A DNA stretch of 24,273 nt. Origin: a virus. Each line of letters opens with the position of its first letter. Position 1 is the stretch's first letter. Of the stretch, positions 5,466-22,021 are shown piece after piece. Position numbers and translations under genes: made by a program. The stretch covers positions 1 to 24,273 of the IMG/VR virus record IMGVR_UViG_3300042308_000248. The stretch is one strand, 5' to 3'. The notes beneath the pieces are model-generated. The model did not search any database, was not told where the DNA came from, and worked only from the letters and a program-made list of their open reading frames with translations.

Positions 5466-5705
5466 ATGGATACTTCAGGATTTTTTAAAAATGATTCCGG
5501 TATGGTTTTAAATGGACCTAATTTTGTTTTGGGTGGTTCATATAGTCTATACAAAGCACAAAAAGATACCTATACTTATCCTATTGAAGGATGGTATTGG
5601 TTTGATACCGAAGAAGAAGCATATAATTATTTTGGAATTCCAATCCCAACACCACCCGCACCACCTGTTCCAACTCCACCATACATCCCACCACCGATTC
5701 CATAA
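5466..5705 (+). CDS. Small virion-associated protein with a proline-rich tail
   Basis: A 79-residue protein in two parts. Residues 1-55 are a compact aromatic-rich segment (DTSGFFKNDSGMVLNGPNFV, then a GWYWFDTEEEAYNYF helix). Residues 56-79 are almost entirely Pro, Thr, Ile and Val in PPxP-type spacing. An AGGA site lies about 5 bases ahead of ATG 5466. The gene starts 3 bases after the leucine-rich repeat gene stop and so is probably cotranslated with it. The segment resembles short conserved proteins found beside fibre genes in T4-like environmental phages. The proline tail may act as a rigid spacer or docking peptide; no function can be assigned. Confidence 0.7.
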   Translation: MDTSGFFKNDSGMVLNGPNFVLGGSYSLYKAQKDTYTYPIEGWYWFDTEEEAYNYFGIPIPTPPAPPVPTPPYIPPPIP

Positions 5706-5708
5706 ATA
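5701..5708 (+). promoter_or_regulatory. Possible late promoter octamer (one mismatch)
   Basis: CATAAATA differs from the T4 late octamer only in its first base. It overlaps the stop codon of the small proline-rich gene and lies 15 bases before ATG 5724, predicting +1 near 5714. The same variant occurs on the minus strand ahead of the HNH gene. A single-mismatch octamer is common by chance, so this is weak. Confidence 0.3.
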
Positions 5709-5723
5709 ACATAGGACAATCAC

Positions 5724-6044
5724 ATGCCAGAAACATATAAAAGTTTTGGAACAATTTTAGGTACTACAGCAGCAACTTCAATTTATGCAGGTGTTACTGG
5801 AACCGCATTAGTAAATGCTGTTAATGTTAGCAATGTTAATGCAAACGCATCAACAACAATAACTGTAGAAATGTTAAAGGGATCGACTGCTTATTCAGTT
5901 ATAAGTAATGTCTACATTAATCCAGGCACATCATTACAGGTATTGGATGCTCCATTGGTTTTAGAATCTGGTAACACGCTCAGAGCAACATCAGGTTTAA
6001 CAGGATATTTTCATACCTTGGTTTCTGTACTTGAAATAACTTAA
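5724..6044 (+). CDS. Small beta-rich virion protein, function unknown
   Basis: A 106-residue protein with alternating hydrophobic/Thr/Ser/Asn pattern predicting a beta sandwich. It contains a run of NAVNVSNVNANAS and a YINPGTSLQV strand pair, followed by LESGNTLRATSG. The pattern is typical of small phage structural proteins that give immunoglobulin-like or tail-associated folds. No catalytic motif, signal peptide or membrane segment is visible. An AGGAC ribosome site lies about 6 bases before the ATG. It sits between the adhesin genes and the dUTPase, in line with the structural module. I do not recognise the family. Confidence 0.65.
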   Translation: MPETYKSFGTILGTTAATSIYAGVTGTALVNAVNVSNVNANASTTITVEMLKGSTAYSVISNVYINPGTSLQVLDAPLVLESGNTLRATSGLTGYFHTLVSVLEIT

Positions 6045-6058
6045 TTAAAGGAAATAAT

Positions 6059-6352
6059 ATGGCACTTGAAAAATCAATAACTTTAGATAATGGATATGAA
6101 GCAAACTATTGGGTTGTAAATAATGTTGAAATTTATAAAAATACAAATACACAAATTAGTGTATTGTTATATTTAAATGAACAGACCAAACAAGATGGTA
6201 AACGAAATGTGTATGCAAAATCATATGGTGTTTCTGGTGAAGCCTGGAACACTTATTTTGCCAATAGTGTATTAGACACAGCAAATCCATTTAAGTCTGC
6301 ATATGATTATCTCAAAACACTTGATGAATTTCAAGGTTCAATAGATGTTTGA
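6059..6352 (+). CDS. Small conserved-looking phage protein, function unknown
   Basis: A 97-residue soluble protein with a strong AAAGGAAA ribosome site just before ATG 6059. The N-terminal part looks beta-rich (SITLDNGYEANYWVVNNVEIYKN reads as alternating strands), and the C-terminal part is helical around ANPFKSAYDYLKTLDEF. The style, a short protein opening with NGYEANYW, is common at the end of phage structural operons. Its stop codon TGA lies inside the -35 box of the next promoter. No function is assigned. Confidence 0.65.
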   Translation: MALEKSITLDNGYEANYWVVNNVEIYKNTNTQISVLLYLNEQTKQDGKRNVYAKSYGVSGEAWNTYFANSVLDTANPFKSAYDYLKTLDEFQGSIDV

Positions 6353-6376
6353 CATTTGATTATTACATGATATAAT
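6349..6376 (+). promoter_or_regulatory. Consensus sigma70-type promoter giving a leaderless dUTPase mRNA
   Basis: TTGACA at 6349-6354 and TATAAT at 6371-6376 are both perfect consensus hexamers with a 16-base spacer. The ATG of the dUTPase is at 6383, exactly 7 bases beyond the last base of the -10, which is the usual position of +1. No Shine-Dalgarno site exists between the -10 box and ATG. The first member of a four-promoter family with identical spacing. Confidence 0.85.
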
Positions 6377-6382
6377 AGTTGC

Positions 6383-6898
6383 ATGTTCCTAGACTACTTC
6401 AAAGTTTCTCCAAATATTCCAGATCCAAATTTTCAGACCAGAATGGCTGCATGTTTTGACCTTGCCGCATATATTCCAGCAAATGAAAAAGTAAAAATTT
6501 ATGACGGAAAAAAGGAAAATTTGTTTCTTCCAGACCATGATGGAGAAAAGGGTCAATACATTACCCTAATGCCTTCTGAAAGGGCTCTAGTTCGCACAGG
6601 CTTGACTTTTAATGTGCCCCAAGGATATTCTGTCCGAATACACCCTAGATCTGGAATGGCTCTTAAATACGGTCTTACGCTTGCAAATTGCGAAGGTGTA
6701 GTAGACGAAGATTACACCTATGAGACCAAACTTATCATGATTAATACTAGCACAGATCCTGTTAGAATCTATGATAGAGATCGTATTGCACAGGGTGAAC
6801 TAGTGAAGTACGAACAGCCAAGACTCATGGAAATTTATACAGAACCGAGTCTGAAGTCAGATCGTATCGGTGGGTTCGGTAGTACTGGAGTCAGTTGA
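6383..6898 (+). CDS. dut: dUTPase (deoxyuridine triphosphate nucleotidohydrolase)
   Basis: A trimeric-type dUTPase of 171 residues that hydrolyses dUTP to dUMP and pyrophosphate, preventing uracil incorporation and supplying dUMP to the ThyX encoded further right. All five family motifs can be seen: CFDLAA (motif 1), PRSGMA (motif 2, with the catalytic Ser), GVVDEDYTYE (motif 3, with the catalytic Asp), RIAQGEL (motif 4) and GGFGSTG (motif 5, the mobile C-terminal arm). A short insertion around the KENLFLPDHDGEKGQY segment lengthens the protein relative to the usual ~150 residues. The gene has its own consensus promoter and apparently no 5' leader. Its last 42 bases overlap the end of the minus-strand lipoprotein gene, over motif 5. 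Confidence 0.95.
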   Translation: MFLDYFKVSPNIPDPNFQTRMAACFDLAAYIPANEKVKIYDGKKENLFLPDHDGEKGQYITLMPSERALVRTGLTFNVPQGYSVRIHPRSGMALKYGLTLANCEGVVDEDYTYETKLIMINTSTDPVRIYDRDRIAQGELVKYEQPRLMEIYTEPSLKSDRIGGFGSTGVS

Positions 6899-7126
6899 TT
6901 TCTTTTTAGAAAATTTAATTGACTTAAATTCTTTCCAGACCAACCAGACTACGAATACGACAACTGGAAAATACCAGAATGCCCATTCTGATGCCTTGTC
7001 TGGAGTATTGAAAAAAGAATTTTCAGAGACTGTGTGAATATGTTCACCAGTCTTTGTCTTTAATGTGACAAATTCAGGACTTGTGCATGAGGCGAGAAAA
7101 ATAATGATTGGAAGTAAATATTTCAT
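6857..7126 (-). CDS. Lipoprotein with C-terminal transmembrane segment, candidate unimolecular spanin
   Basis: An 89-residue protein. Residues 1-14 form a lipoprotein signal peptide ending in the lipobox LASC, with Cys14 as the lipidation site; the +2 residue is Thr, not Asp, which favours outer-membrane sorting in Gram-negatives. Residues 48-64 (WAFWYFPVVVFVVWLVW) are a clear transmembrane helix followed by a Lys-rich tail, so the C-terminus should be cytoplasmic. An outer-membrane lipid anchor plus an inner-membrane C-terminal helix in one chain is the architecture of unimolecular spanins such as T1 gp11, which fuse the two membranes at lysis. The ~33-residue ectodomain is unusually short for that. 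It overlaps the upstream holin-like gene by ATGA, with a GGGAG ribosome site. It may instead be an inner-membrane lipoprotein. Confidence 0.7.
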   Translation of the reverse strand: MKYLLPIIIFLASCTSPEFVTLKTKTGEHIHTVSENSFFNTPDKASEWAFWYFPVVVFVVWLVWKEFKSIKFSKKKSTDSSTTEPTDTI

Positions 7127-7554
7127 TTGTTGCTCCCTGCTGCTGAACCAAAGTAGAACCCAACAACGGCAAGTAGAACTTGACGGTTTTCTTCAGCCAA
7201 GAAATATCCTGGAATTTCAATAAAGTATTTACGAGTTGTTTCTGGGATAAATCCAAAGATCGAATCAGGTTGTTTCTGTGAAATTTCTACAAATGTAGGA
7301 ATCCCAAAGAACGGTAAGACGAATGGAGCAGCCACAACTGCAAAGAGACAGGAAAGTACAATAAGGCGGCGAACGTTCTTACCAACGTCAATTGGTACAC
7401 GCTGGACAGCCTTATCTTGATTTTCAGTAGTTTGAGTATTTGCCTTGAGCATTTGCTCAAACATTTCTTTTTGATCTTGAGCCCGTTGAGCCCAGTATTT
7501 GAAAAGAAATCCAGTAGCAGTTCCACCAATTAATGATATGAGTTGTTCAGACAT
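7123..7554 (-). CDS. Holin-like small membrane protein
   Basis: A 143-residue membrane protein. There is a weakly hydrophobic N-terminal segment (LISLIGGTATGFLFKYWA), a charged helix rich in Gln/Lys/Glu at about residues 25-60, a strong helix RLIVLSCLFAVVAAPFVLPFF, an ectodomain of about 40 residues, and a final helix VLLAVVGFYFGSAAG near the C-terminus. This layout resembles three-segment holin families, in which the last helix often ends in a GFYFG-like motif. Holins pore the inner membrane to time lysis. The late promoter upstream and the spanin-like lipoprotein fused by ATGA downstream support a lysis role, but no endolysin lies in this window. A GAGGT ribosome site precedes the ATG. Assignment rests on topology and context. 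Confidence 0.65.
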   Translation of the reverse strand: MSEQLISLIGGTATGFLFKYWAQRAQDQKEMFEQMLKANTQTTENQDKAVQRVPIDVGKNVRRLIVLSCLFAVVAAPFVLPFFGIPTFVEISQKQPDSIFGFIPETTRKYFIEIPGYFLAEENRQVLLAVVGFYFGSAAGSNK

Positions 7555-7562
7555 AATATACC

Positions 7563-8168
7563 TCAGTTCTTTTGATGTGAAAGTTGAATCTCGATTGACT
7601 CTTTGATAGCCTTGAAATGTTTCATTAAAATATCATGTTCTTCCATCTGTGGTTCAAATTTTTCATTCCATTGAAGCAAAACAAATCCAACATTTGCTCC
7701 TTTGTTTTTTAATGGAAGACACGCATAATCTGAAACGTTTTCATCTTCAAAGAACCCTTTAGTGTAACTTTCAGGTAATGATCGAAGAGGATAAATTAAA
7801 CTTTTGTTTTCTACTACATGGACTAATAAGGGAATAAACATTGAACATAAACTTCCTTTGAGAAGCCCTACCTGTGAGGTATAACCTTTGTGAGTTGATT
7901 CGTGAGTTACAGAAAATTTACGCATGGAAATTCCATCCATTGTATATTCCCCGTTATGAAACTGTAAAATACTTGCTCTCATGGACTTAGTGGTAATTCT
8001 AAGTTCTGTTAATAATTCATGTATTTCGGTATGTATTGCAATATAATTGTCTGTTTTTATTCTAGACTTTACAAATTTCATAATTCCATATACACCACCG
8101 ATTACACCTACCATAATAAGAGAAATAATGTCTATAAATTTGGTATAATCGATGAGAGATAACAGCAT
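7563..8168 (-). CDS. Membrane-anchored GAF-like phage protein
   Basis: A 201-residue protein with one N-terminal transmembrane helix (about residues 10-32, FIDIISLIMVGVIGGVYGI) followed by a basic FVKSRIK stretch and a cytoplasmic domain. The domain begins with a helix, then SILQFHNGEYTMDGISMRK, later VSDYACLPLKNKGANVGFVLLQW, a pattern of strand and hydrophobic core like GAF/PAS-type sensor folds. The QFHNG motif recurs in membrane-linked phage and bacterial proteins that I remember only as uncharacterised. It is the first gene behind the minus-strand late promoter, with a GGAG ribosome site, and is followed 8 bases later by the holin-like gene. A role in sensing the moment of lysis is tempting but unsupported. 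Confidence 0.6.
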   Translation of the reverse strand: MLLSLIDYTKFIDIISLIMVGVIGGVYGIMKFVKSRIKTDNYIAIHTEIHELLTELRITTKSMRASILQFHNGEYTMDGISMRKFSVTHESTHKGYTSQVGLLKGSLCSMFIPLLVHVVENKSLIYPLRSLPESYTKGFFEDENVSDYACLPLKNKGANVGFVLLQWNEKFEPQMEEHDILMKHFKAIKESIEIQLSHQKN

Positions 8169-8195
8169 ATTTTAAAACTCCATTGGGTGCATTAA

Positions 8196-8203
8196 TATTT
8201 ATA
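8196..8203 (-). promoter_or_regulatory. T4-type late promoter for the lysis cassette
   Basis: On the minus strand a perfect TATAAATA occupies 8203-8196. By T4 geometry +1 would be at 8190, giving a 22-base leader with a GGAG ribosome site about 9 bases before the ATG at 8168. It lies just 3 bases from the divergent plus-strand -35 box at 8207, so the two promoters are back to back. Confidence 0.65.
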
Positions 8204-8206
8204 TTC

Positions 8207-8234
8207 TTGACATCCCCATAATAGGGTATATACT
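8207..8234 (+). promoter_or_regulatory. Sigma70-type promoter giving a leaderless Nmad1-like mRNA
   Basis: TTGACA at 8207-8212 (perfect) and TATACT at 8229-8234 (one mismatch), 16-base spacer. ATG 8241 lies 7 bases past the end of the -10, the expected +1. No ribosome site can fit between. Same geometry as the dUTPase promoter. Confidence 0.8.
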
Positions 8235-8240
8235 ACTGCC

Positions 8241-8555
8241 ATGACTAGAGATGAACTATTTCAACTACACGAAGACGTTTGCCGCCGAGCATTAGTAATA
8301 ATGCGTCACAAGTCCGCAGATTATGCATCCGGAACAGATCCGTTTGCTAATTTTAAGAGAGGAGAGATTCTTGGCTTTGCAAGTGCCGAAGAAGGGTTAA
8401 TGTTGCGAGTAGTCGATAAAATCTCACGTATTTCCACCTTCCTCAAGAAGGGTGAATTAAAAGTGGGAAATGAGACTGTTCAAGACAGCATTCTTGACGT
8501 AATTAACTATATGATTCTACTTCAGGGATTGCTGGAAGATAAAGAAACAAAATAA
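8241..8555 (+). CDS. Nmad1/DUF1599-like all-alpha nucleotide-associated protein
   Basis: A 104-residue all-helical protein. The KSADYASGTDPFANFKRG segment (about residues 24-41), the LRVVDKISRISTFL helix and the terminal DSILDVINYMILLQGLL helix match what I know of DUF1599, called nucleotide modification associated domain 1. That family is distantly related to all-alpha NTP pyrophosphatases (MazG-like), with acidic residues in the helices placed to bind metal. It may hydrolyse or process a nucleotide, but activity is unproven. It is first in the replication block, transcribed from a promoter whose +1 is the ATG, and its TAA overlaps the polymerase start (TAATG). Confidence 0.75.
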   Translation: MTRDELFQLHEDVCRRALVIMRHKSADYASGTDPFANFKRGEILGFASAEEGLMLRVVDKISRISTFLKKGELKVGNETVQDSILDVINYMILLQGLLEDKETK

Positions 8556-11062
8556 TGAAATTTTATACAGCATGTGCACTTAAGGGGAACAAGGTTCTTG
8601 TTCGTGGCTATAACAACGGTGTTCGTTTTACGGATACCGTTACCTATAAGCCATCATTGTATATGCGTACTGACACTCCCAGTAAACACAAAACCTTGAC
8701 CGGTGTCAATGTTGGTCGTATTAAGTTTGAGAATTTGTATGAGGCTCGTGAATTCCTTGATCAATACAGAGAACTAGAAGATTGTCCAATTTATGGAAAC
8801 ACTGATTTCATCACTCAATATATCATGGAGACTTATCCGTCTGAGGTGGAATACGATCTTTCCAAGATCAAAGTAGCCTACTTGGACCTTGAATGTGAGA
8901 CGGAAGGGGGGTTTCCCAATCTTGATGCGCCTAATGAACGCATCAACTTGGTGACGATTCGTATCTCTGGTGTCAATTATGTTATCACCATGAAACCCCT
9001 GAACCTTCCGGATTGTAGAGTTGTGCTTGTTGCATCCGAGAAGGAGTTGATCAAGAAGATCTTTGACATTCTTCGTCAATGTGATGCAGATATTCTGACT
9101 GGCTGGAACATCAAACTCTTTGATATGCCCTATATCATTGGTCGTGCCAAACTCTTCTTTGAAGAAAAGGAGATTCAGGCATGGATGCCCTTTGGCTTCA
9201 TGAAGATGCGTATTACCAATATTGGTGGTAAAGACTATACTCTATATGAGTTTCCGGGATATACCATCCTGGATTACATGGATTTATATAAGAAATTTTC
9301 TGGAACCAACCAGGAGAGTTACGCTCTAAATAATATAGCAAAGGTAGAACTAGATGAACAAAAACTGGACTATACCGAATATGGGTCGTTGCGTGAGTTT
9401 TATACGCAAAACTTTCAAAAGTTTGCTGAGTACAATGTCCAAGACGTGGTCTTGGTTGAGCGACTTGAGGATAAATTAAAGTTAATTGATCTTGCAGTTT
9501 CGATTGCATATGAAGCCAAGATCACCTTTGATACCGTCTTCTTCGCCACACGTATTTGGGAAACCATTTGTTGTGACTATCTTGCCAAGCAAAACATTGT
9601 TCCACCATTAAAGACAAAGTATGCCAAGGATGATCAGTTCATTGGTGCATATGTCAAGGATGTAATTCCTGGTCTGTATAAAAATGTTGTGAGTTTCGAT
9701 GCAACATCTCTATATCCATCTATTATCATTGGTTGGAACATTTCACCCGAGACATGCATTGTCAAGAATTCATCATTGAATGCAGATGACTTTTTGCGTA
9801 GTAAACGCAAAGAGATTCCAGACATGATTCAAGATGCTATTGATCAGAATGCATGCTTGGCATGCAATGGTTCAGTCTTCTCCAATAGCGTCAAGGGATT
9901 CATTCCTACTTTGATTGAGATCACTTTCAATCAACGACAAGAAGCCAAGAAGAAGATGATTAAGTTGGAAAAAGAATATGAAATCTCCAAGGATAAGAAA
10001 CTTACTCCCTTGATTGCGGCTCTTAAGATTCGTCAGTCTGTTAAGAAGATTCTAGCAAACAGTCTGTATGGCTGTCTTGGTAATCCTGCATTCACATACT
10101 CTTCTCCGGAACTCGCAACTGCAGTTACTGTTACTGGTCAGGTTATCATTCGATCTGCTGAAGATCAGATGAATGCCTATATCAATAGAGTTATGAAGAA
10201 TACTGACTCAAAGGATTATGTTATTGCCGTTGATACAGATTCTGTTTATCTAAATCTTGAAGATATTATTACTAAAGTTTCTAGCAAGAGTGATATCGGT
10301 GACATCACAACCTTTATTGATAATATCTGTGAAAAGAATATTCAAAAAGAATTGACTGGGACAATGAAAGAGTTGACCACGAAACTTAATTGTCTCACCA
10401 ACAAGATTTCATTCAAGCGTGAAGCCATTGCATCAAGTGGAATGTTTATTGCCAAGAAGCGATATGCGTTACTGATGACAGATCTTGAAGGTGTTCGCTT
10501 CAGTGAACCAAAGTTAAAGATCATGGGTCTTGAGACAGCACGAAGCAGTACTCCCGGTATTGTTCGTACTAAACTCAAAGATTGCATCATGATCATCATG
10601 ACCAAGACCCCCGAGGAGTTGCGTAAGTATGTGGATGCATTTTATGATGAATTTATGGAACTACCTATAGATGTTATAGCATCTCCTCGGGGTGTTAAGG
10701 GTATCAGCAAGTATACTGACTTCTCAGACATATATAAGTCAGGTACCCCGATTGCTACCAAGGCTGCATTGTTACACAATGCATACGTCAAGAAGATAAA
10801 TTTGGATAAAGAACTTCCACCTATTAAGGAAAACGACAAGATCAAGTTTATATTTGTTCGTGTTCCAAATCCATATGGTATGGGCGGCAGAGATGCAGTA
10901 ATGGGATTCATTGGCAAGGCTCCTCCACAATTTAATCTTGAAAAGTATATTGATCGAAAGAAACAATTTGATAAAACTTTTGGTGAACCTCTTGACAATA
11001 TTTTACAAGCAATTAAGTGGTCAATAAATCAACAAGTAACACTTGAATCCTTCTTTGGATGA
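8555..11062 (+). CDS. 43: DNA polymerase, family B (T4 gp43-like)
   Basis: Replicative DNA polymerase of 835 residues (T4 gp43 has 898). The proofreading exonuclease motifs are complete: Exo I YLDLE with Asp111 and Glu113, Exo II NIKLFD with Asp190, and Exo III YNVQD with Tyr293 and Asp297. Polymerase motif A is DATSLYPS beginning at Asp382, motif B is KILANSLYG at 498-506, and motif C is DTDS with Asp560 and Asp562. All catalytic carboxylates are present, so it should be active in both polymerisation and editing. It starts one base into the preceding stop (TAATG), so translation is coupled to the Nmad1-like gene. The clamp and clamp-loader genes that in T4 lie near gene 43 are not in this window. 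Confidence 0.97.
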   Translation: MKFYTACALKGNKVLVRGYNNGVRFTDTVTYKPSLYMRTDTPSKHKTLTGVNVGRIKFENLYEAREFLDQYRELEDCPIYGNTDFITQYIMETYPSEVEYDLSKIKVAYLDLECETEGGFPNLDAPNERINLVTIRISGVNYVITMKPLNLPDCRVVLVASEKELIKKIFDILRQCDADILTGWNIKLFDMPYIIGRAKLFFEEKEIQAWMPFGFMKMRITNIGGKDYTLYEFPGYTILDYMDLYKKFSGTNQESYALNNIAKVELDEQKLDYTEYGSLREFYTQNFQKFAEYNVQDVVLVERLEDKLKLIDLAVSIAYEAKITFDTVFFATRIWETICCDYLAKQNIVPPLKTKYAKDDQFIGAYVKDVIPGLYKNVVSFDATSLYPSIIIGWNISPETCIVKNSSLNADDFLRSKRKEIPDMIQDAIDQNACLACNGSVFSNSVKGFIPTLIEITFNQRQEAKKKMIKLEKEYEISKDKKLTPLIAALKIRQSVKKILANSLYGCLGNPAFTYSSPELATAVTVTGQVIIRSAEDQMNAYINRVMKNTDSKDYVIAVDTDSVYLNLEDIITKVSSKSDIGDITTFIDNICEKNIQKELTGTMKELTTKLNCLTNKISFKREAIASSGMFIAKKRYALLMTDLEGVRFSEPKLKIMGLETARSSTPGIVRTKLKDCIMIIMTKTPEELRKYVDAFYDEFMELPIDVIASPRGVKGISKYTDFSDIYKSGTPIATKAALLHNAYVKKINLDKELPPIKENDKIKFIFVRVPNPYGMGGRDAVMGFIGKAPPQFNLEKYIDRKKQFDKTFGEPLDNILQAIKWSINQQVTLESFFG

Positions 11063-11070
11063 GTTATAAT
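11043..11070 (+). promoter_or_regulatory. Putative leaderless promoter inside the 3' end of the polymerase gene
   Basis: TTGAAT at 11043-11048 (four of six matches) and a perfect TATAAT at 11065-11070, 16-base spacer. An in-frame ATG at 11077 is exactly 7 bases beyond the -10. The same geometry as the three other leaderless promoters makes this more credible than its -35 alone would. Confidence 0.6.
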
Positions 11071-11076
11071 GATAAT

Positions 11077-11310
11077 ATGAATGAGAGAATAGAAAAACAA
11101 ACAATCAAGGAATTTGAAGTAACATTTATGCAAAATTATCAAAAAAAGTATAATCACTATACAAAGGCAAAACCTCCTACTATAGACTATCCAATTATTA
11201 AAATAAAAGACGATATAATTAAAAAATTGCGTGAAGAAATTACTTCATTGAATGAAGAAATTAAAGATTTGAAGACAGATCTAAAATCTTTTATTGAAAT
11301 GGAAAGTTAA
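11077..11310 (+). CDS. Small coiled-coil protein, function unknown
   Basis: A 77-residue highly charged protein. Residues 43-77 (IKIKDDIIKKLREEI onwards) show heptad-like spacing of Ile/Leu and predict a coiled coil, so it probably dimerises. The N-terminus is basic and helical. Two starts compete: ATG 11059, overlapping the polymerase stop as ATGA but lacking a ribosome site, and ATG 11077 six codons later, which is exactly at the predicted +1 of a TATAAT promoter. I list the second because it fits the geometry of three other genes here; both forms may be made. No homology recognised. Its place beside gene 43 suggests a replication accessory, as inference only. Confidence 0.6.
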   Translation: MNERIEKQTIKEFEVTFMQNYQKKYNHYTKAKPPTIDYPIIKIKDDIIKKLREEITSLNEEIKDLKTDLKSFIEMES

Positions 11311-11313
11311 GAA

Positions 11314-11616
11314 ATGGTAAAGACCTTTAAATCTAGATATGGTGATGAACGAATCCTCACAAAACGTAAAGACGGAAACTATAGTATCGAAGGTCACACC
11401 TTATTTTCTAGGGGTGGCGATGGTTTATTTGACTTTGAAGGTGGTCCATGCGTTATGGTTGGTGCTAGACTACTTGACATTGTCAATGACGTAGATGACG
11501 TAATCGTAGAATCAATTACTATTGATGACACCATAGTTGAAGAAAACTATGCGCGGATTATCATTACAACCAAAAATTATAAGAAAGGTAAGAAGCAAAG
11601 TGACAAAGAAATCTAA
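11314..11616 (+). CDS. Small phage protein in the replication block, function unknown
   Basis: A 100-residue protein beginning 3 bases after the preceding stop. The N-terminal half is Gly/aromatic rich (RKDGNYSIEGHTLFSRGGDGLFDFEGG) and predicts beta strands, the middle is acidic (NDVDDVIVESITIDDTIVEE), and the C-terminus is basic (KNYKKGKKQSDK). An acidic beta-rich body with a basic tail could bind nucleic acid or protein, but no family is recognised. The last 17 bases overlap the next gene if that starts at GTG 11600. A coding region is supported by spacing, overlap and strand. Confidence 0.65.
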   Translation: MVKTFKSRYGDERILTKRKDGNYSIEGHTLFSRGGDGLFDFEGGPCVMVGARLLDIVNDVDDVIVESITIDDTIVEENYARIIITTKNYKKGKKQSDKEI

Positions 11617-11983
11617 AGTTACTATTACTAAAACAATTCCGTGGCAATATGAATATAATATTTTAAGAATTCCATATCAAGAATTTATAGATTCAATTGA
11701 AGAGATGCCATTTAAGTTGTTAATGCATGAGTACCGGTCACACTGTGAGTATCGGGGTACTAAGTTAAATAGTAAACCAGAATTCAGTAAAGAAAATAGT
11801 ACTGATCTATATAAAAGAATTATTGCTATTGAAGATTTACTTGAAAAGTGTTATCACAGACTTAGTGATGCTGTAGAGGCATCTCAGTATTGGGAAAACG
11901 AAAATTGGAAACACGCACAAAAAGAAAAGGAAAAGAATGTCAAAGTATCTAACAAATCTACTAAGCAAATTAAACAATCCTGA
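11600..11983 (+). CDS. Small basic helical protein, function unknown
   Basis: The frame is open from 11537, but I choose GTG 11600 (127 residues) because an AAAGGT ribosome site lies about 10 bases before it and the overlap with the upstream gene falls to 17 bases. The protein opens with a Lys-rich stretch (TKKSKVTITK) and contains a helical core with IPYQEFIDSIEEMPFKLLMHEYR and IAIEDLLEKCYHRLSDAVEASQYW, ending in a Lys-rich tail. Helical, basic and located immediately before uvsX, it could be a nucleic-acid-binding accessory. It overlaps uvsX by 47 bases, a long overlap that argues for cotranslation. Nothing in the sequence fixes a function. Confidence 0.6.
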   Translation: MTKKSKVTITKTIPWQYEYNILRIPYQEFIDSIEEMPFKLLMHEYRSHCEYRGTKLNSKPEFSKENSTDLYKRIIAIEDLLEKCYHRLSDAVEASQYWENENWKHAQKEKEKNVKVSNKSTKQIKQS

Positions 11984-12959
11984 TGCAGCCATTGTAGCCG
12001 ATGGTATTGATGGGGCTGATGTTACAGGCTTTATTGATACTGGTTCATATGTTCTGAATGCTTTGCTTTCAGGATCTATATATGGTGGACTACCAGCAAA
12101 CAAAATCTCTTGTCTTGCAGGAGATCCTGCTACTGGAAAAACTTTCTATGCAATTGGAATCGCTACGCAATTTCTCAAAGACCACAAAGATGGTGTTGTC
12201 ATCTACTTTGACACGGAGCAAGCAATCACTTCAGACATGTTTGCACAGCGGGGAATTGATTCCAAAAGAATTGCAGTTGTTCCTGTTGCAACAATCGAAG
12301 AGTTCAAGAACCAGGCTCTCAAGATCGTCAATGATGTACTTGAAACACCTGAAGAAGACCGCAAGCCAATCTTTATGGTTCTTGATTCTTTGGGAATGTT
12401 ATCGACAAACAAAGAAATGAATGATTCTGCTGAAGGTAAGGATGTGCGTGATATGACCAAGGCACAACTTACTAAGGCTACTTTCCGTGTTCTTACATTG
12501 AAACTTGGTAAGGCAAAGATACCACTTCTTCTTACAAACCATACATATCAAGTTATTGGTTCATATGTTCCTACTAAGGATCTTGGTGGTGGTACTGGTA
12601 TTAAGTATGCAGCAAGTAACATCATCATGTTATCAAAGAGTAAGGACAAGACTGATGATGGTATCGTTGGTAACTTTATTAAATGTACCAATTATAAGAA
12701 TCGTTTTGTCAAAGAAAATATGCATGTTCAGACAAGACTTAACTATACGTCTGGATTAAGTAGATATTATGGCTTGACAGACCTTGCAATTGAGTATAAT
12801 ATATTCAAGAAGGTTTCGACACGAGTAGAACTTCCAGATGGTACAAAAGCATTTGAGAAAAATATAGATGAAGATCCTGAAAAGTATTTTACAAAAGATA
12901 TTCTTGACAAGTTGGATATAGAAATTCAAAAAGGATTTAAGTATGGGCAAGGCAGTTGA
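11937..12959 (+). CDS. uvsX: UvsX-like RecA-family recombinase
   Basis: A 340-residue RecA/UvsX-type strand-exchange protein that forms filaments on single-stranded DNA and drives recombination-dependent replication and repair. Walker A is GDPATGKT at residues 62-69, the catalytic-type Glu is in DTEQ at 92-95, and Walker B is FMVLDS with Asp150. A GGGTGIKYAAS segment lies where RecA-like proteins have the L2 DNA-binding loop. The N-terminus is short and lacks a RecA-style long helix, as in UvsX. An AAAGGAAAAG ribosome site lies before ATG 11937. The gene order uvsX - small ORF - 41 - 61 matches T4, where gene 40 sits in the gap. Overlaps both neighbours. Confidence 0.93.
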   Translation: MSKYLTNLLSKLNNPDAAIVADGIDGADVTGFIDTGSYVLNALLSGSIYGGLPANKISCLAGDPATGKTFYAIGIATQFLKDHKDGVVIYFDTEQAITSDMFAQRGIDSKRIAVVPVATIEEFKNQALKIVNDVLETPEEDRKPIFMVLDSLGMLSTNKEMNDSAEGKDVRDMTKAQLTKATFRVLTLKLGKAKIPLLLTNHTYQVIGSYVPTKDLGGGTGIKYAASNIIMLSKSKDKTDDGIVGNFIKCTNYKNRFVKENMHVQTRLNYTSGLSRYYGLTDLAIEYNIFKKVSTRVELPDGTKAFEKNIDEDPEKYFTKDILDKLDIEIQKGFKYGQGS

Positions 12960-13266
12960 ATATAAATTTATTCCTGAAGTATCAATAGACAGTACACAAA
13001 CTTGCCCTATTGAAATTACATCGGGTAAATTTTCTGGCATCATTTATCGTTATGGGCAAATTTCCTTTAAAGAAACTGATAATGACGAATTAAATGTAAC
13101 GATGGATATTGAAATCATTACATCACCAGATGGATTTGATCAACAAGATAAAGATTTTACAAATATTGCTGGTGAAATATTTGTTAATATTGTAGAAAAT
13201 CAAGTAGAAGCAGAACCCAGAGATCTTGAATCAGATGTTCATGAAGATCCACTGGACAAACCCTAA
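12943..13266 (+). CDS. Protein at the position of T4 gene 40, function unknown
   Basis: A 107-residue acidic protein overlapping the end of uvsX by 17 bases, with an AAGGA ribosome site. Residues 1-80 predict alternating beta strands (VEYKFIPEVSIDS, CPIEITSGKFSGIIYRYGQISF, LNVTMDIEIITSP), then a short helix, and an acidic disordered tail (EAEPRDLESDVHEDPLDKP). In T4 the gene between uvsX and 41 is gene 40 (114 residues, a head-assembly accessory), so size and position agree, but I cannot claim sequence similarity. The tail also contains the -35 box of the gp41 promoter (TGGACA), so the end of this gene is constrained by regulation. Confidence 0.7.
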   Translation: MGKAVEYKFIPEVSIDSTQTCPIEITSGKFSGIIYRYGQISFKETDNDELNVTMDIEIITSPDGFDQQDKDFTNIAGEIFVNIVENQVEAEPRDLESDVHEDPLDKP

Positions 13267-13280
13267 ATCAGTGATATACT
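13253..13280 (+). promoter_or_regulatory. Sigma70-type promoter giving a leaderless gp41 helicase mRNA
   Basis: TGGACA at 13253-13258 (one mismatch) and TATACT at 13275-13280 (one mismatch, preceded by TG as in extended -10 sites), 16-base spacer. ATG 13287 is 7 bases past the end of the -10. The six intervening bases are aaaaac, with no ribosome site. Confidence 0.75.
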
Positions 13281-13286
13281 AAAAAC

Positions 13287-14705
13287 ATGGAAACAGTTAT
13301 TTTAAAGAACTTGGTCCTCAATGAGGACTATGCTCGCAAGGTTGTCCCGTTCCTTCAGGATGAATACTTTCACGACAAGTCTGAAAAGACTGTATTCAAT
13401 ATCGTAAGTAAGTTTCTTCTCAAGTACAATAACATTCCTACTAAGGATGCTGTACTCATTTCACTTGGAGATGACAAGACTCTTGGAGAAAGTGAATTCA
13501 AGAAGTGTGTTGCTATCTCTGATGAGATGTATAAGGAAGGTGAGAAGTCTGATACTGAGTGGCTTGTAGAACATACTGAAAAGTTCTGCAAAGAGAAAGC
13601 CATTTACAATGGTATCATGGCATCCATTGGTATCATTGAAGGTAAGGATAAGGAACAGACTCAGAATGCAATTCCTGAGATCATGTCTAAGGCTCTGTCT
13701 GTATCCTTTGATACTCGGGTAGGACACGACTTCTTTGAAGATGTTGATGAACGCTATGAGTACTATCATCGTGTAGAAGAGCGTGTACCATTTGATCTTG
13801 AGATGTTTAATCTCATCACCGGTGGTGGAGTTCGCAAGAAGACTCTCAACGTTGTCATGGCAGCATCGGGTGTTGGTAAGAGTGCATTCTTATGCCATCA
13901 TGCTGCTGCGTGTCTTACACAGAATTTGAATGTGCTGTATATCACACTTGAAATGTCTGAAGAAGAAATTGCTAAACGTATTGATGCAAATCTTTTAGAT
14001 ACAGACATTCATGTTCTTGAGAAGATGCCTCTTGCTATGTACGAGAACAAGGTAAACAATCTCAAGAAGACTTGCCGTGGTAAACTTATTATTAAAGAAT
14101 ATCCTACTGCTGCTGCCAATGTCACACACTTCCGTAATCTTATGGAAGAACTGAAGATCAAGAAGAAGTTCAAGCCTGATATTATTATTGTTGATTATCT
14201 AAACATCTGCTCATGTGCAAGATTCAAGATGGGCAACGGTATGAATAGTTACACCTATGTAAAGGGTATTGCAGAAGAACTTCGTGGTCTTGCCAAGCAG
14301 TTCAATGTACCACTATGGTCTGCCACTCAGGTAAATCGTGAAGGTGCAAAGAGCAGTGACATGGAGATGACAGACACATCTGAAAGTTTTGGTCTACCAC
14401 AAACTACAGACTTCTTCATTGCACTCATTGAGACTGAAGAGTTAGCACAGAATGGTCAACTCATGGTGAAGCAGTTAAAGAACCGTGGTAATGATACAAC
14501 TAAGAATCGTAAGTTTCTTATTGGTGTAAACAAATCCAAGATGAAGTTCTATGATGTAGAAAATTCAAATAATAATCTTGTCAATGCCAACAATACAAAT
14601 GAAGAAAGTTTTGGATCAGGTTCTGGTCCACTAGTATTTTCAGATGATTTTGGAATTAAAAAGAACAAGGCATTAAACTGGGTTTTTCAAGACGCACCAA
14701 AATGA
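13287..14705 (+). CDS. 41: Replicative DNA helicase (T4 gp41, DnaB-like)
   Basis: A 472-residue hexameric helicase (T4 gp41 has 475) that unwinds the fork and carries the primase. The N-terminal domain is helical; the C-terminal RecA-like domain has Walker A SGVGKS at 194-199, the ITLEMSEEEIAKRI motif following it, Walker B IIIVDYLN with Asp303, the ATQVNREG sensor region, and the arginine-containing QLKNRGND region. These match the DnaB_C family closely. The last 70 residues end in a less conserved acidic tail. The ATG is at the predicted +1 of its promoter. The stop overlaps the primase start by ATGA, so helicase and primase are produced together, as suits a 1:1 primosome assembly. Confidence 0.95.
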   Translation: METVILKNLVLNEDYARKVVPFLQDEYFHDKSEKTVFNIVSKFLLKYNNIPTKDAVLISLGDDKTLGESEFKKCVAISDEMYKEGEKSDTEWLVEHTEKFCKEKAIYNGIMASIGIIEGKDKEQTQNAIPEIMSKALSVSFDTRVGHDFFEDVDERYEYYHRVEERVPFDLEMFNLITGGGVRKKTLNVVMAASGVGKSAFLCHHAAACLTQNLNVLYITLEMSEEEIAKRIDANLLDTDIHVLEKMPLAMYENKVNNLKKTCRGKLIIKEYPTAAANVTHFRNLMEELKIKKKFKPDIIIVDYLNICSCARFKMGNGMNSYTYVKGIAEELRGLAKQFNVPLWSATQVNREGAKSSDMEMTDTSESFGLPQTTDFFIALIETEELAQNGQLMVKQLKNRGNDTTKNRKFLIGVNKSKMKFYDVENSNNNLVNANNTNEESFGSGSGPLVFSDDFGIKKNKALNWVFQDAPK

Positions 14706-15688
14706 GCATATATATTGATAAGAAATATGTGAATATGGTTTCTGGTTCACTTCAGAAGTTTAAGTGGAAGAAAGATAACCTAGCCACATGCAGATGTTTC
14801 GCATGTGGTGACTCAAAGAAAAATAGATCCAAGACAAGGGGATATTTCTTTGAGAACAAAGGAAAATATGTTTATAAATGTCACAATTGCGGTATTGCTT
14901 GTAATTTATATTCTGTTCTTGAAAGTATCAGCCCATCTCTCTGCAAAGAATATGCGTTTGAAAATTTCAAGGACAAAAATCCAGAACCGATTGAACGAGA
15001 GGAAGCAATTGTGCGTGAACCTATGTTCACGAATCTCGGAACAAGGCTTGACTTACTCGATCCAACCCATAAAGCAGTAAAATATGTTCAATCTAGAGAA
15101 ATTCCTAAAGAGAAGTATAGTAGTTTTTATTACTGCGCTGATTTCAGTAGGATCATGGCGGATTTTGACCGTGAAGGGACCAAGGAAGACAGACTCGTCA
15201 TACCGTTCTATGACGAGGATGGGTCACTACTTGGCGTACAGGGGCGATCCTTTGAAGAAAAGAGGGATTCCATACGCTACATTACCCTCAAGAAAGACGG
15301 CGAAGAACGGCTTTGGTACAACCTAGATAAAGTAGATCCAAGAGAAACTGTTTACGTTACAGAAGGTCCTATTGACTCCATGTTTATTCCAAATGGAGTT
15401 GCAATGCAGGGTGCAGGTTGGTTAGACACGATTCCTAAAAAAATTGCAAAAGCAAATATAGTTTTTGTTTTTGATAATGAACCTAGAAATATTGAAATAG
15501 TAAATTTAATTGGTAGATATATTGATGCTGGACGAAATGTAGTAATCTGGCCAAGTGAAATTGATAAAAAAGATGTCAATGATATGGTTAAAGTCTATGG
15601 AACGAATCTAACCATGAAGTTGATTATTAATAATGTTTATTCTGGACTTAAAGCTAAAATGAAGTATACTTACTGGAAGAAGGTTTAA
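14702..15688 (+). CDS. 61: DNA primase (T4 gp61-like)
   Basis: A 328-residue primase (T4 gp61 has 342) that makes short RNA primers at the fork. The N-terminus carries a zinc-binding domain with Cys32, Cys35, Cys60 and Cys63 in CFACG and CHNCG. The middle has the TOPRIM-type catalytic core: TEGPIDSMF with Glu221 and FVFDNE with Asp258, the two acidic sites that bind metal. It overlaps gp41 by ATGA, and has no strong ribosome site, so it depends on coupling. A Lys-rich C-terminus (KAKMKYTYWKK) follows. The order 41-61 is as in T4 but without intervening genes. Confidence 0.92.
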   Translation: MSIYIDKKYVNMVSGSLQKFKWKKDNLATCRCFACGDSKKNRSKTRGYFFENKGKYVYKCHNCGIACNLYSVLESISPSLCKEYAFENFKDKNPEPIEREEAIVREPMFTNLGTRLDLLDPTHKAVKYVQSREIPKEKYSSFYYCADFSRIMADFDREGTKEDRLVIPFYDEDGSLLGVQGRSFEEKRDSIRYITLKKDGEERLWYNLDKVDPRETVYVTEGPIDSMFIPNGVAMQGAGWLDTIPKKIAKANIVFVFDNEPRNIEIVNLIGRYIDAGRNVVIWPSEIDKKDVNDMVKVYGTNLTMKLIINNVYSGLKAKMKYTYWKKV

Positions 15689-15689
15689 A

Positions 15690-15923
15690 ATGGATAATAA
15701 TGAAGATATGACAGAAGAAGATATCTTAAAGGCTAGTGAAGCCTATCTGACTTTTGTGCAAAGATTTGGTGAATATGTAAAAGAAATGGACCCAGGTTTA
15801 TGGTCCCGAGCACGAGAATACGCTGCAGACTTTACAAAGATTGATGGTGTGAGAGTTGAACTTGTAGATGTAGATGAGGATGAAGATGACCGAGATAGCA
15901 CAAATAAAAATGGCGCAGACTAA
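15690..15923 (+). CDS. Small acidic protein, function unknown
   Basis: A 77-residue protein, helical for its first 50 residues (EEDILKASEAYLTFVQRFGEYVKEM then WSRAREYAADF) and ending in an extremely acidic tail (VDVDEDEDDRDS). It starts one base after the primase stop with a GAAGAAGG ribosome site. It overlaps thyX by 14 bases. Acidic small proteins next to phage replication genes can be DNA mimics or protein inhibitors, but nothing here shows that. No family recognised. Confidence 0.65.
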   Translation: MDNNEDMTEEDILKASEAYLTFVQRFGEYVKEMDPGLWSRAREYAADFTKIDGVRVELVDVDEDEDDRDSTNKNGAD

Positions 15924-16614
15924 GTACTTTGTCCTAGATCACGGTCACGTTGATCTAGTGGATTATATGGGTTCGGATTTAAGTGTGGCAAATGCAGCAA
16001 GAGTTTCTTTTAATAAAGAAAGTTCTTGGGATTATGCTGATAGCCATGTTCCAATTCGTTCTCTATCTGATAAAGATGCAAAACTAATTCGTTATCTGGC
16101 AAAGCATAATCACTTTACACCATTCTGTCATCCACAGATCAGTGTTCGTATCAAGTGCCCTATCTTTGTTCGTGCTCAACTAGGAAAGCACCAAGTTGGT
16201 CTTGTGATGAATGAAGTCAGTCGTAGGTATGTCACTTATGAGCCTGAGATTTATACTCCTATGTGGAGAAATTCTCCTACTGATGGAGCCAAGCAAGGTA
16301 GCAGTGGTCCTATTGAAGATCTGGATCATTGTATTAAACTTCGTCAAGAATATGATGGAGTTGCAAAAGAATGTTTAGATCTTTATAATAAACTTTTGGT
16401 AGATGGTGTTGCTCCTGAGCAAGCCCGTTCAATATTACCACAAGGAACTTATACAGAATTTGTATGGACTGGTTCTCTCTATGCATTTGCCCGTGTTTAT
16501 AATTTGAGAATCGATGCACATGCCCAATGGGAAATTCAAGAATATGCAAAAGCAATTGACAAATTAATTGCTCCCCTTTTCCCGGTTTCGTGGCAGACTC
16601 TAACAACTAAATAA
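15910..16614 (+). CDS. thyX: FAD-dependent thymidylate synthase ThyX, divergent
   Basis: Makes dTMP from dUMP using methylenetetrahydrofolate, FAD and NADPH. The frame is open from 15874, but ATG 15910 (234 residues) is the better start because the extra 12 residues lie inside the preceding gene. The region KHQVGLVMNEVSRRY (about 93-107) aligns with the ThyX signature RHRxxSxNExSxRY, keeping NE, S and RY, while the leading Arg-His-Arg is replaced by His-Gln-Val at those columns or Lys-His-Gln one column earlier. Upstream ARVSF and the HNHFTPFCHPQISVRIKCP strand, and downstream EQARSILPQGTYTEFVWTG, also fit ThyX. It acts with dUTPase and NrdJ in one nucleotide supply line. Confidence 0.88.
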   Translation: MAQTKYFVLDHGHVDLVDYMGSDLSVANAARVSFNKESSWDYADSHVPIRSLSDKDAKLIRYLAKHNHFTPFCHPQISVRIKCPIFVRAQLGKHQVGLVMNEVSRRYVTYEPEIYTPMWRNSPTDGAKQGSSGPIEDLDHCIKLRQEYDGVAKECLDLYNKLLVDGVAPEQARSILPQGTYTEFVWTGSLYAFARVYNLRIDAHAQWEIQEYAKAIDKLIAPLFPVSWQTLTTK

Positions 16615-16637
16615 GACACCCACTTAAGGATTTAACT

Positions 16638-18527: not shown

Positions 18528-18534
18528 TTTACTT

Positions 18535-18607
18535 TCCTCTGTAGCTCAGTTGGTAGAGCAGAGAGCTGTTAACTCTCGGGTCACTGGTTCAAATCCAGTC
18601 GGAGGAG
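18535..18607 (+). tRNA. tRNA-Asn (anticodon GUU)
   Basis: A complete cloverleaf of 73 bases. Acceptor TCCTCTG pairs with CGGAGGA (one G-T pair), D stem GCTC/GAGC, anticodon stem GAGAG/CTCTC with loop CTGTTAA and anticodon GTT at 18568-18570, T arm ACTGG-TTCAAAT-CCAGT, discriminator G. The acceptor, T arm and loop closely resemble bacterial tRNA-Asn. CCA is not encoded (the next bases are CAT), so it must be added by the host. It follows nrdJ by 7 bases and is probably cut from the same transcript. The asparagine-rich fibre and late proteins could benefit from extra tRNA-Asn. Confidence 0.97.
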
Positions 18608-18616
18608 CATACAAAT

Positions 18617-18644
18617 AAACCCCTAGGAGAAATCCTGGGGGTTT
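18617..18644 (+). terminator. Strong hairpin terminator after nrdJ and tRNA-Asn
   Basis: A 12-base-pair stem (AAACCCCTAGGA against TCCTGGGGGTTT, one G-T pair) closed by a GAAA tetraloop. The bases after it are TTTATAAATATT rather than a pure T run, and the 3' end of the stem is fused to a late promoter octamer. It separates the early/middle nucleotide block from the following late-type gene. Confidence 0.85.
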
Positions 18645-18651
18645 ATAAATA
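18644..18651 (+). promoter_or_regulatory. T4-type late promoter fused to the terminator, +1 at the ATG
   Basis: A perfect TATAAATA whose first T is the last base of the terminator stem. If it occupies -13 to -6 as in T4, +1 is 18657, the A of the ATG. No ribosome site (the gap is ttggt) is present, so this would be a leaderless late transcript. Confidence 0.7.
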
Positions 18652-18656
18652 TTGGT

Positions 18657-20555
18657 ATGCTGTCATTTAAACAATACTTAATAGAAAAACAAGAAGATAC
18701 CAAATATGGTGGTATGAATGTACCATTAGATCTTGCTGATTTTCCTGATAATCAAAATGGTTCAATGATAAGTCCAGTAAATTTTTCTGGTACAGCTTTG
18801 AATCCTGTAAAATATACACGAACAGATCGTGATGCTTATGATACAGCATTAAAACTTAAAAATGAGAAAATTTTAGCAAATAATCAAAAATTTGGATTAT
18901 CTGATGAAATTGATGAAACTCCTTTTGAAGATGCATTTAATAATACTAGGAAATATATTGAAAGTACGGTGATGGATCCAGGTAATAAGGAGAACGAGCC
19001 ACGTTCACCTGAGGATATGAAATCATCCAGGACATTCTCCAGTACAGGAACTATGAATCAACCTCCAGATTTAGGACAAAAAGGATGGTTGGGTTCTATA
19101 TTAAATCCAGATAATCCACTTGACGCTGGATCATTGCATACTGATTTGTTAAGACAAGTCAAAGATAAAGGAACTCAGATATCTCAAAGATTTAATGATT
19201 TCACAAATTTTTTACGTAGTAATGATCCTTTTGATTATGCATTTTCAAAAAATTATAGAGAAAGAAAAAAATTAAATAGTCCATTATGGCAAGCACACAA
19301 TGAAGCCGGAGAAAAAGAAGCAAGAAATGCAAGGTTAGGTGTAACTCCTTCAGTTGTTAATCCAAATCCACCTGAAAATTATCATGACTCACAAGATTAT
19401 TTTGATAGAATAACAGGAATTGCAAATACTTTATATAATGCTAATACTATGTTCGTAAAGAAAGAAAATCAAAAATTATCTCCATTTGATATGATTTCTT
19501 TAGAATTTGGAAAAGATAAAACCAAAGAAAGAAATGACTTTTTAGCAAAACAAAAAGAATATTTGAAACGTTCTGGACCAAATGATTTAGATTATAGTGA
19601 TCAAGCAAAATTAGCTAGACAATATGCAGATTTAAGAGATCCAAAACATGATGAAGCAATGCTTTATAAGCCATTAGAGATAACTCATTTTGATAAAACT
19701 GGTTACAGATACTTTGATCCACCCGAAGCTTTCTTAGGAAGAAACAACGTAAAATACCCTGAATTAGTTGATGCTAAATTAACATGGAATGTTCAACATC
19801 TTCTAGATCCATATTCTACTTTTAATAAAGCTCAACGAGATAAGAAAACACCACAATTACCAGTTGATCAATCTGTTCAAAAACTAATTGATAATCAAAT
19901 GAGTAATGCGCCAAATACTTTTGAAACTACAATTGATATGAATAAAGATAATATTAAAGATTGGGATCAATATATTCAGGTTATGAATCATGAAGGTCAA
20001 CATGCAATAGGAACTCAATTACGAGGAGTTGCTGCAGTTGAAAATGCAGTTAGTTCTAATTTAGAAAAAAAACCAGAATATAAATCTCCTGCTACTATTA
20101 AATATGGTATTGAACCTTCGACAAGTGGAATTGCTTTAGGATCTGGTTATGAAGAATTAGAAAAAAGAGGAATTTTAGATAGTTGGGAATTGACTCCAGA
20201 ACAAAAAGAGACTGTAAAAACTGCATTAGATCAGATGGATACTCCAACTCCTTCACCAGATAATAGATTTAAAACTCCTAATAATTATTTTTGGAGTAGA
20301 GCTGAAATGCCTGCATTTATGAGAGATATTAAAGGTAGATTATTAAAATCAACAGGTAGTTATCCTATGAGTGATCAAACAGATGAAGAAATAGAAAAAG
20401 ATAGAGATAGAATGTATAAGCTTCTTCAACAAAATGGACCAGGTGAAGATCTAGCACCGGTAAAAGCTCTTGAAATGATGGGAACCCCAGAAGGTAAAGC
20501 CATATATAGAGGTGTAGAAAAATCTTCATCGAAACAAGATAGACGATATGCCTAA
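18657..20555 (+). CDS. Late protein with HEGQH zinc-protease motif and putative capsid-targeting N-terminus
   Basis: A 632-residue hydrophilic protein. Residues 1-11 (MLSFKQYLIEK) resemble the capsid-targeting peptide of T4 internal proteins (MKTYQEFIAEA), and LIE at 8-10 fits the (L/I)-x-E cleavage site of the T4 gp21 prohead protease, which would cut after Glu10. Residues 18-31 hold GGMNVPLDLADFPD, repeated in the last gene of the window. Much of the middle is low complexity and charged. Residues 445-449 are HEGQH inside QVMNHEGQHAIG, an HExxH zinc-metallopeptidase signature. Few other landmarks. It may be a capsid-packaged, injected protein with protease activity, or a structural protein with a chance motif. 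Arg is nearly always AGA, unlike the replication genes. Confidence 0.65.
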   Translation: MLSFKQYLIEKQEDTKYGGMNVPLDLADFPDNQNGSMISPVNFSGTALNPVKYTRTDRDAYDTALKLKNEKILANNQKFGLSDEIDETPFEDAFNNTRKYIESTVMDPGNKENEPRSPEDMKSSRTFSSTGTMNQPPDLGQKGWLGSILNPDNPLDAGSLHTDLLRQVKDKGTQISQRFNDFTNFLRSNDPFDYAFSKNYRERKKLNSPLWQAHNEAGEKEARNARLGVTPSVVNPNPPENYHDSQDYFDRITGIANTLYNANTMFVKKENQKLSPFDMISLEFGKDKTKERNDFLAKQKEYLKRSGPNDLDYSDQAKLARQYADLRDPKHDEAMLYKPLEITHFDKTGYRYFDPPEAFLGRNNVKYPELVDAKLTWNVQHLLDPYSTFNKAQRDKKTPQLPVDQSVQKLIDNQMSNAPNTFETTIDMNKDNIKDWDQYIQVMNHEGQHAIGTQLRGVAAVENAVSSNLEKKPEYKSPATIKYGIEPSTSGIALGSGYEELEKRGILDSWELTPEQKETVKTALDQMDTPTPSPDNRFKTPNNYFWSRAEMPAFMRDIKGRLLKSTGSYPMSDQTDEEIEKDRDRMYKLLQQNGPGEDLAPVKALEMMGTPEGKAIYRGVEKSSSKQDRRYA

Positions 20556-20650: not shown

Positions 20651-20665
20651 AAGGTATAAGTACAT

Positions 20666-22003: not shown

Positions 22004-22013
22004 ATTCTTTAAG

Positions 22014-22021
22014 TATTTATG
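22014..22021 (-). promoter_or_regulatory. Possible late promoter octamer for the HNH/zinc-ribbon pair (one mismatch)
   Basis: On the minus strand CATAAATA lies at 22021-22014, one base from the T4 late consensus. Predicted +1 near 22008 would leave only a 5-base leader before ATG 22003. Weak on its own, but the short leader echoes the other promoters here. Confidence 0.35.

Follow-up and report, generated by a model that had tools for sequence, protein, structure and literature searches.

Does the constant distance between promoter and start codon at four genes of a viral DNA fragment mark genes whose messages begin at the start codon itself? The fragment is IMG/VR record IMGVR_UViG_3300042308_000248, whose whole 24,273 bases form the stretch analysed here (the window). 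It is a fragment of a T4-like phage, with Pfam matches to a family B DNA polymerase (pol), a UvsX/RecA-like protein, a DnaB-like gp41 helicase, a dUTPase and ThyX. Ahead of the dUTPase gene, of an Nmad1-like gene preceding pol, of a short open reading frame (ORF) at the 3′ end of pol and of gene 41, a −35 box, 16 bases, a −10 box, six bases and an ATG follow one another (distances are written N16, N6 and so on). Comparison with related genomes makes it highly probable that this is a clade-wide module of promoter plus start codon, which would give leaderless mRNAs from the host sigma70 polymerase and initiation at a 5′-terminal AUG.

Four promoters with identical spacing in the window

A sequence-only reading had reported four promoters with identical spacing, and every box, N16 and N6 proved correct to the base (Table 1). 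With up to two mismatches, TTGACA-N16-TATAAT-N6-ATG has 4 matches in the window, in every case with the ATG as first codon of a reading frame, whereas 100 dinucleotide-preserving shuffles gave a mean of 0.25, a largest count of 2 and none of 4 or more. At up to three mismatches, 5 matches were obtained compared to 2.74 in the shuffles, 11 of the 100 reaching 5, which is not significant, and a generic promoter scan of positions 5500-24273 showed no enrichment (69 versus 68.7). Since these looser scans are not enriched, what is significant in the window is the combination of near-consensus boxes with a fixed distance to the ATG. The same two scans speak for chance in A+T-rich DNA, to which we leave a negligible probability: the shuffles, the conservation in homologues and the N6 spike in relatives oppose it, and it is refuted by that conservation and by the controls. 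The four-site pattern is confirmed as real and beyond chance.

No Shine-Dalgarno (SD) site is visible ahead of any of the four starts. For the short ORF, an alternative in-frame ATG at 11059 overlaps the stop codon of pol; the originally proposed start at 11077 is favoured because 31 of the 40 homologous pol ends with promoter-N6/N7-ATG lack this upstream ATG. The −35 box ahead of this ORF falls in the last DNA polymerase codons (LESFFG, 11043-11062), a tail that we take to resemble a sliding-clamp binding tail, and the DNA of this interval may be doubly constrained.

The six-base offset in related genomes

The window being a fragment of its genome, the genome-wide test was made on 11 related records. 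Around their 1064 sigma70-type promoter-like sites, an ATG stands at N6 152 times and at N7 41 times, compared to a mean of 20.1 per offset over N8-N30 (maximum 31); the genome-wide enrichment of the geometry at start codons, anticipated from the window, is thus present in these relatives. In seven cultured T4-like genomes (T4, Syn9, HTVC008M, Melnitz, phiM12, ACP17 and AG-345-P14), 605 sites gave 15 at N6 versus a mean of 14.5, with no spike, phiM12 (35 sites) and ACP17 (11 sites) lending little power to the comparison. S-PM2, for which the pattern check alone was made, has 1 match at up to two mismatches and no sigma70-N6 class. When the sites of seven relatives were divided by the spacer between the boxes, N6 starts followed 54 of 258 sites with spacer 16 and 47 of 256 with spacer 17, 1 of 123 with spacer 15 and 5 of 145 with spacer 18; the reversed sequence gave 3 of 129 (spacer 16) and 1 of 138 (spacer 17).

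The offset, spacer and conservation counts rest on plain consensus rules and not on a weight matrix, which was trained on the upstreams of dut, gp41 and the Nmad1-like gene and is circular where these are concerned. Scans covered 140000 of 147284 bases of HTVC008M and 140000 of 141548 of Melnitz and, among the relatives, 80000 of 83215 of G009, 60000 of 67996 of G011 and 80000 of 87583 of G012. The last, an outgroup (N6 at 2 of 17 sites), is excluded from the offset totals, from the spacer, family and CA counts and from the non-late promoter and base counts. By record, N6 ranges from 2 of 98 sites (G009) and 5 of 88 (G008) up to 24 of 58 (G011); the class is unequally rich across records and present through most of the clade.

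Two promoter architectures

With exact −35 boxes and N6, ORFs of low G+C content (GC) give 52 placements, of which 50 have spacer 16, one has 18, one has 21 and none has 17; the exact N16 described from the window is thus a property of the class. High-GC ORFs have spacer 17 in 54 cases and spacer 16 in 9. All 17 low-GC protein families are N16; the 36 high-GC families divide, by commonest spacer, into 33 N17 (two ties) and 3 N16. The −10 box is TATAAT or TATACT in 41 of the 50 sites of the low-GC N16 set and TACAAT or TATCAT in 45 of the 54 of the N17 set. Two architectures are present, the dispersed N16/TATAAT-TATACT type seen in the window and an N17/TACAAT type in a GC-rich island. N16 alone was rejected as a signature, N17 being used in the island and N16 elsewhere. 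The scheme is therefore wider than the one first read from the window, as it adds the N17/TACAAT class and T4-type late promoters with N5.

In the N17 class, successive genes of a GC-rich stretch, many of them short, each have their own promoter, and a codon-based gene caller missed many of them. An AT-rich stretch, which may be likened to an UP element, lies 11-25 bases 5′ of the −35 box. The first codons of the high-GC class are rich in ACC, AAC and AGC. Over codons 2-8, CA/AC dinucleotides reach 0.337 in this class. Windows elsewhere in its genes give 0.132 ± 0.010, and a set of 60 further high-GC genes gives 0.176; the rise is smaller in the low-GC class (0.171 versus 0.112 ± 0.011). CA repeats near and after the start codon are reported to strengthen leaderless translation (PMC9031893). 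An exact search with part of the N17-class module yielded 13 stretches, spread over 12 IMG/VR contigs. Outside the four genes of the window, and not confined to the N17 class, leaderless N6 starts head the late sigma factor gp55 (phrog_234) and the 'peptidase' phrog_459, and N7 starts head UvsY (phrog_231), GMP reductase, a CobS-like ATPase (short of the model cut-off despite E 2.3e-21) and, in G006, a TrmH/RlmB-like RNA methyltransferase (46 bits, likewise under its model cut-off).

The island lies at G007:25000-36000 and at the ends of G001, with many short own-promoter genes, some divergent; its GC per kb is 0.50-0.65 (G007, 25-36 kb) and 0.48-0.56 (G001 ends), the genomes having about 0.36-0.40. 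A repeated element, CTACTATC...GATAGTAG, has mutually reverse-complementary ends and internal inverted repeats (e.g. G007:26758-26836). It occurs in 25 copies in 5 of 12 relatives (G001, G006, G007, G010 and G011; L230 corresponds to G007:20001-40000), with 0 copies in the window and 0 in the seven cultured T4-like phages. The copies read in G007 appear intergenic within the island.

Conservation upstream of homologous genes

Conservation was counted over distinct 36-base upstreams, two mismatches being allowed per box. N16/N6 precedes the dUTPase gene in 50 of 55 upstreams, the other five belonging to remote homologues (35-42% identity), and gene 41 in 59 of 67, with N16/N7 in 1. The seven gene 41 upstreams without promoter belong to three proteins at 58% identity and four at 48-55%. 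The Nmad1-like gene is looser, its 60 upstreams comprising 12 with N6/N16, 8 with N7/N16, 28 with N8/N16, 6 of other form and 6 with none. At pol ends, N16 boxes are found in 70 of 81 distinct sequences and an ATG at N6/N7 in 40. The short ORF 3′ of pol differs among genomes, and in others a later start comes next; the pol-end site looks like an old promoter that is leaderless in just part of the clade.

Several of these observations weigh against a clade-wide leaderless module. G009 shows no sigma70-N6 peak and that of G008 is weak; three gp41 upstreams lack the promoter at as much as 58% identity; N8 is frequent among Nmad1-like relatives; and 41 of the 81 pol ends have no N6/N7 ATG despite the boxes in 70. 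Because of the N8 arrangement at the Nmad1-like gene and the many pol ends of this kind, such promoters are not all strictly leaderless. In addition, promoters without an N6/N7 ATG share the spacer preference (spacer 16 in 71 and 17 in 38 in low-GC surroundings, 17 in 31 and 16 in 11 in high-GC ones), and spacing is therefore a trait of the promoter and not of leaderlessness.

These offsets could also reflect compaction, promoters simply abutting genes in dense phage genomes, with leaders just a few bases long or with transcription starting elsewhere. The minor N7 peak (41), the N8 of many Nmad1-like homologues and the −35 boxes that sit within the ends of preceding genes (pol, and the ORF before gp41) fit this explanation, but it predicts broad offsets and not a one-base N6 spike that is absent from cultured T4-like phages, and we consider it very improbable.

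The gp41 genes without leaderless promoter (58% identity) are carried by L023, L078 and L165, otherwise related contigs, the pol of L023 being 94% identical; this suggests that gp41 was replaced in these three.

Transcription start and proposed mechanism

Transcription by sigma70 polymerase normally begins about 7 bases past the −10 box, at a purine that follows a pyrimidine, and a pyrimidine before the ATG is therefore expected if +1 is the A of the AUG. At −1, 45 of the 50 low-GC leaderless genes and 62 of the 63 high-GC ones have a pyrimidine, compared to 463 of 807 other called genes. In the seven relatives used for the SD and gene-caller figures, SD sites precede 1 of 38 leaderless genes versus 293 of 807 others (Fisher p 2e-6); the gene caller rewards both SD and leaderless starts, and the SD figure for the others may be too high for that reason. 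Since the window and G001 have loci in common, the −1-base, SD and per-gene spacer counts include a few genes twice.

In the mechanism that we propose, host RNA polymerase with a sigma70-type factor would bind the −35 and −10 boxes and, with the ATG placed exactly six bases past the −10 box, would start at the A of this codon, producing a leaderless mRNA. The ribosome would initiate by recognising the 5′-terminal AUG instead of an SD site, and genes further down each operon would depend on SD sites or on overlapping stop and start codons. N16/TATAAT-TATACT would serve dispersed operon heads, namely the dUTPase gene, the Nmad1-like gene ahead of pol, the short ORF and gp41, and N17/TACAAT the successive, often short genes of the GC-rich and probably early island, where the CA-rich first codons may strengthen leaderless translation. 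The 5′ ends, 5′-AUG initiation, operons, timing and host sigma use in this scheme are predictions from the arrangement of the DNA.

T4-type late promoters

The T4 late box spans −13 to −6, so that five bases between box and ATG would put +1 on the A of the ATG. In seven relatives the late box ATAAATA stands at N5 before an ATG in 57 of 305 cases, and N5 late sites have a pyrimidine before the ATG in 101 of 113. In the window, the N5 scan gave 1 site forward versus 4 in the reversed control. As a clade-specific trait the N5 late layout is weakened by a lesser rise in cultured phages (HTVC008M 11 of 132, T4 8 of 174) and by G002 (4 of 146) and G003 (4 of 70), in which N5 does not stand out.

A broader reading, which we put forward tentatively and with more doubt than confidence, is that in a T4-superfamily clade promoter and start codon have become a single rigid unit throughout the transcription programme, with N17/TACAAT early, N16/TATAAT-TATACT at replication heads and N5 late, and with a CA-rich downstream enhancer in N17. 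If true, a large share of operon-first genes would depend on leaderless initiation, freed from SD-dependent competition for 30S subunits.

Possible host mimicry and altered initiation

The phage could also be using ordinary host-style promoters, the host itself having leaderless genes widely and no phage-specific programme being involved. We give this host mimicry a chance approaching even, and it is compatible with the clade-wide module. TANAAT-N6-ATG occurs 101 times, 62 of them in one genome (G019), in seven Phycisphaerae genomes among the listed matches of a tRNA-Arg 31-mer, versus 24 at N4 and 5 in the reversed control; but the sign is unspecific, a Burkholderiales genome (G022) having 13 at N6 versus 0 at N4 and a Gemmataceae genome 38 versus 12, and the 31-mer also matches many Alphaproteobacteria, Phycisphaerae and others (at least 117 stretches). 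The full sigma70 pattern has at most 6 matches at up to two mismatches in any Phycisphaerae genome, and of three Phycisphaerae (600 kb) two show a weak peak at offsets 5-6 and the third shows none, nor is there one in 200 kb of Gemmataceae. Mimicry would agree with the GC-rich N17 leaderless ORFs (median 0.58 versus 0.39 for N16) and with a PEP-CTERM-like tail on a protein of one relative (14.1 bits, below the cut-off of 16). A gp41 search of genome contigs for the host gave no relative, and WhiB was found in 0 of 10 records. Taken together, the hints to a Phycisphaerae host are suggestive, weak and unspecific.

The PEP-CTERM-like end belongs to a protein of 143-147 amino acids (aa) encoded by a leaderless gene at G001:8131, G002:98549 and G006:45440; of two copies checked, that of G001 gave the 14.1 bits (TIGR02595) and that of G006 no match.

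Leaderless initiation is described as mostly direct 70S binding (PMC9031893). A programmed switch, in which a phage-made change of the ribosome or of initiation factors would bias 70S ribosomes towards leaderless messages, has a precedent in phiYS40, for which most middle and late mRNAs are reported as leaderless, with IF2 raised and IF3 lowered (PMC3594737), and the TrmH/RlmB-type methyltransferase-like leaderless gene of G006 would suit it. The search of the records, which may be fragments, found IF3 and IF1 in 0 of 12 each and bS21 in 0 of 10, and these genomes also have SD-led genes. The altered initiation imagined in the sequence-only reading is not supported by these results, and we regard such a switch as unlikely.

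Relation to known leaderless systems

Leaderless messages are already known, also in phiYS40, a phage that we take not to be T4-like; what looks new is so rigid a layout throughout a clade of T4-like phages, and searches of the open-licence PMC literature found no report of such a class in these phages. In TA-led leaderless bacterial genes the −10 box lies some 12 bp ahead of the start, and SD is absent (Zheng et al. 2011, PMC3160421). The phage sites resemble them in this distance, with N6 in all four window sites and the N6 spike in relatives, and in the scarcity of SD sites at leaderless starts, but the carrier here is a T4-like phage clade. In Deinococcus-Thermus a −10 motif adjoins ORFs and most such genes are described as having no classical −35 (PMC12340547), whereas the phage sites have a near-consensus −35 and a rigid N16 or N17. 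phiYS40 is likewise reported as a phage with many leaderless mRNAs, but its host is Thermus (PMC3594737). Lambda cI also has a leaderless 5′-terminal AUG (PMC9031893, and lambda phage in PMC3160421), but it is one gene and not a genome-wide class. T4 shares the sigma70-type early boxes and the late box TATAAATA but lacks the sigma70-N6 class, as do Syn9, HTVC008M, Melnitz, phiM12, ACP17 and AG-345-P14. In T4 middle promoters (MotA/AsiA) the MotA box replaces the −35, which is present in the sites described here.

An uncultivated T4-like clade in which the AUG of 53 protein families sits exactly at +1 would offer a natural comparative series for the requirements of leaderless starts, among which exact spacing, the pyrimidine at −1 and CA-rich first codons are open to comparison. 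The geometry also makes a simple rule for start calling.

The window and its phage clade

The window polymerase is identical to that of G001 (IMGVR_UViG_3300042894_002308, an IMG/VR record of 135,768 bases). In the polymerase tree, which carries a long-branch warning, the window and 16 further rows (some records entered twice) form one group with support 100/100, apart from T4, phiM12, ACP17 and four Kyanoviridae examples; the latter (Syn9, HTVC008M, Melnitz and AG-345-P14) group together at 99/98, and the window clade is not among them.

Features are collected in Table 1. The promoter ahead of the Nmad1-like gene is as first described, whereas the name itself is weak, the DUF1599 score being below the cut-off; the stop codon of this gene overlaps the polymerase start (TAATG). 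The short ORF, labelled coiled-coil in the sequence-only reading, has no match in Pfam or PHROG. The ORF at 14702, 3′ of gp41, starts by ATGA overlap and has no Pfam match; it is presumably gp61.

Table 1. Promoters and genes of the window discussed in the text (aa, amino acids).
Feature	Position	Strand	Details	Basis
dUTPase promoter	6349..6385	+	−35 TTGACA 6349-6354, N16, −10 TATAAT 6371-6376, N6, ATG 6383	
dUTPase	6383..6898	+	171 aa	Pfam PF00692 E 6.6e-17; phrog_135
Nmad1-like gene promoter	8207..8243	+	−35 TTGACA 8207-8212, N16, −10 TATACT 8229-8234, N6, ATG 8241	
Nmad1/DUF1599-like protein	8241..8555	+	104 aa	PF07659 20.3 bits, below cut-off 25; phrog_1485, unknown function
Family B DNA polymerase (T4 gp43-like)	8555..11062	+		Pfam PF00136; polymerase tree
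Promoter at pol 3′ end	11043..11079	+	−35 TTGAAT 11043-11048, N16, −10 TATAAT 11065-11070, N6, ATG 11077	
Short ORF	11077..11310	+	77 aa from ATG 11077 (83 aa if ATG 11059)	open reading frame
Gene 41 helicase promoter	13253..13289	+	−35 TGGACA 13253-13258, N16, −10 TATACT 13275-13280, N6, ATG 13287	
DnaB-like replicative helicase gp41	13287..14705	+	472 aa	Pfam PF03796, phrog_19
Predicted T4-type late promoter	18644..18659	+	TATAAATA 18644-18651, N5, ATG 18657	sequence match
632-aa ORF	ATG 18657	+	no PHROG match	T4-type late promoter ahead of start

Relatives of the window also carry a permuted transfer-messenger RNA (RF04321) and up to ten tRNAs (L217:1335-1613, L231:11942-12195 and L220:7434-7712).

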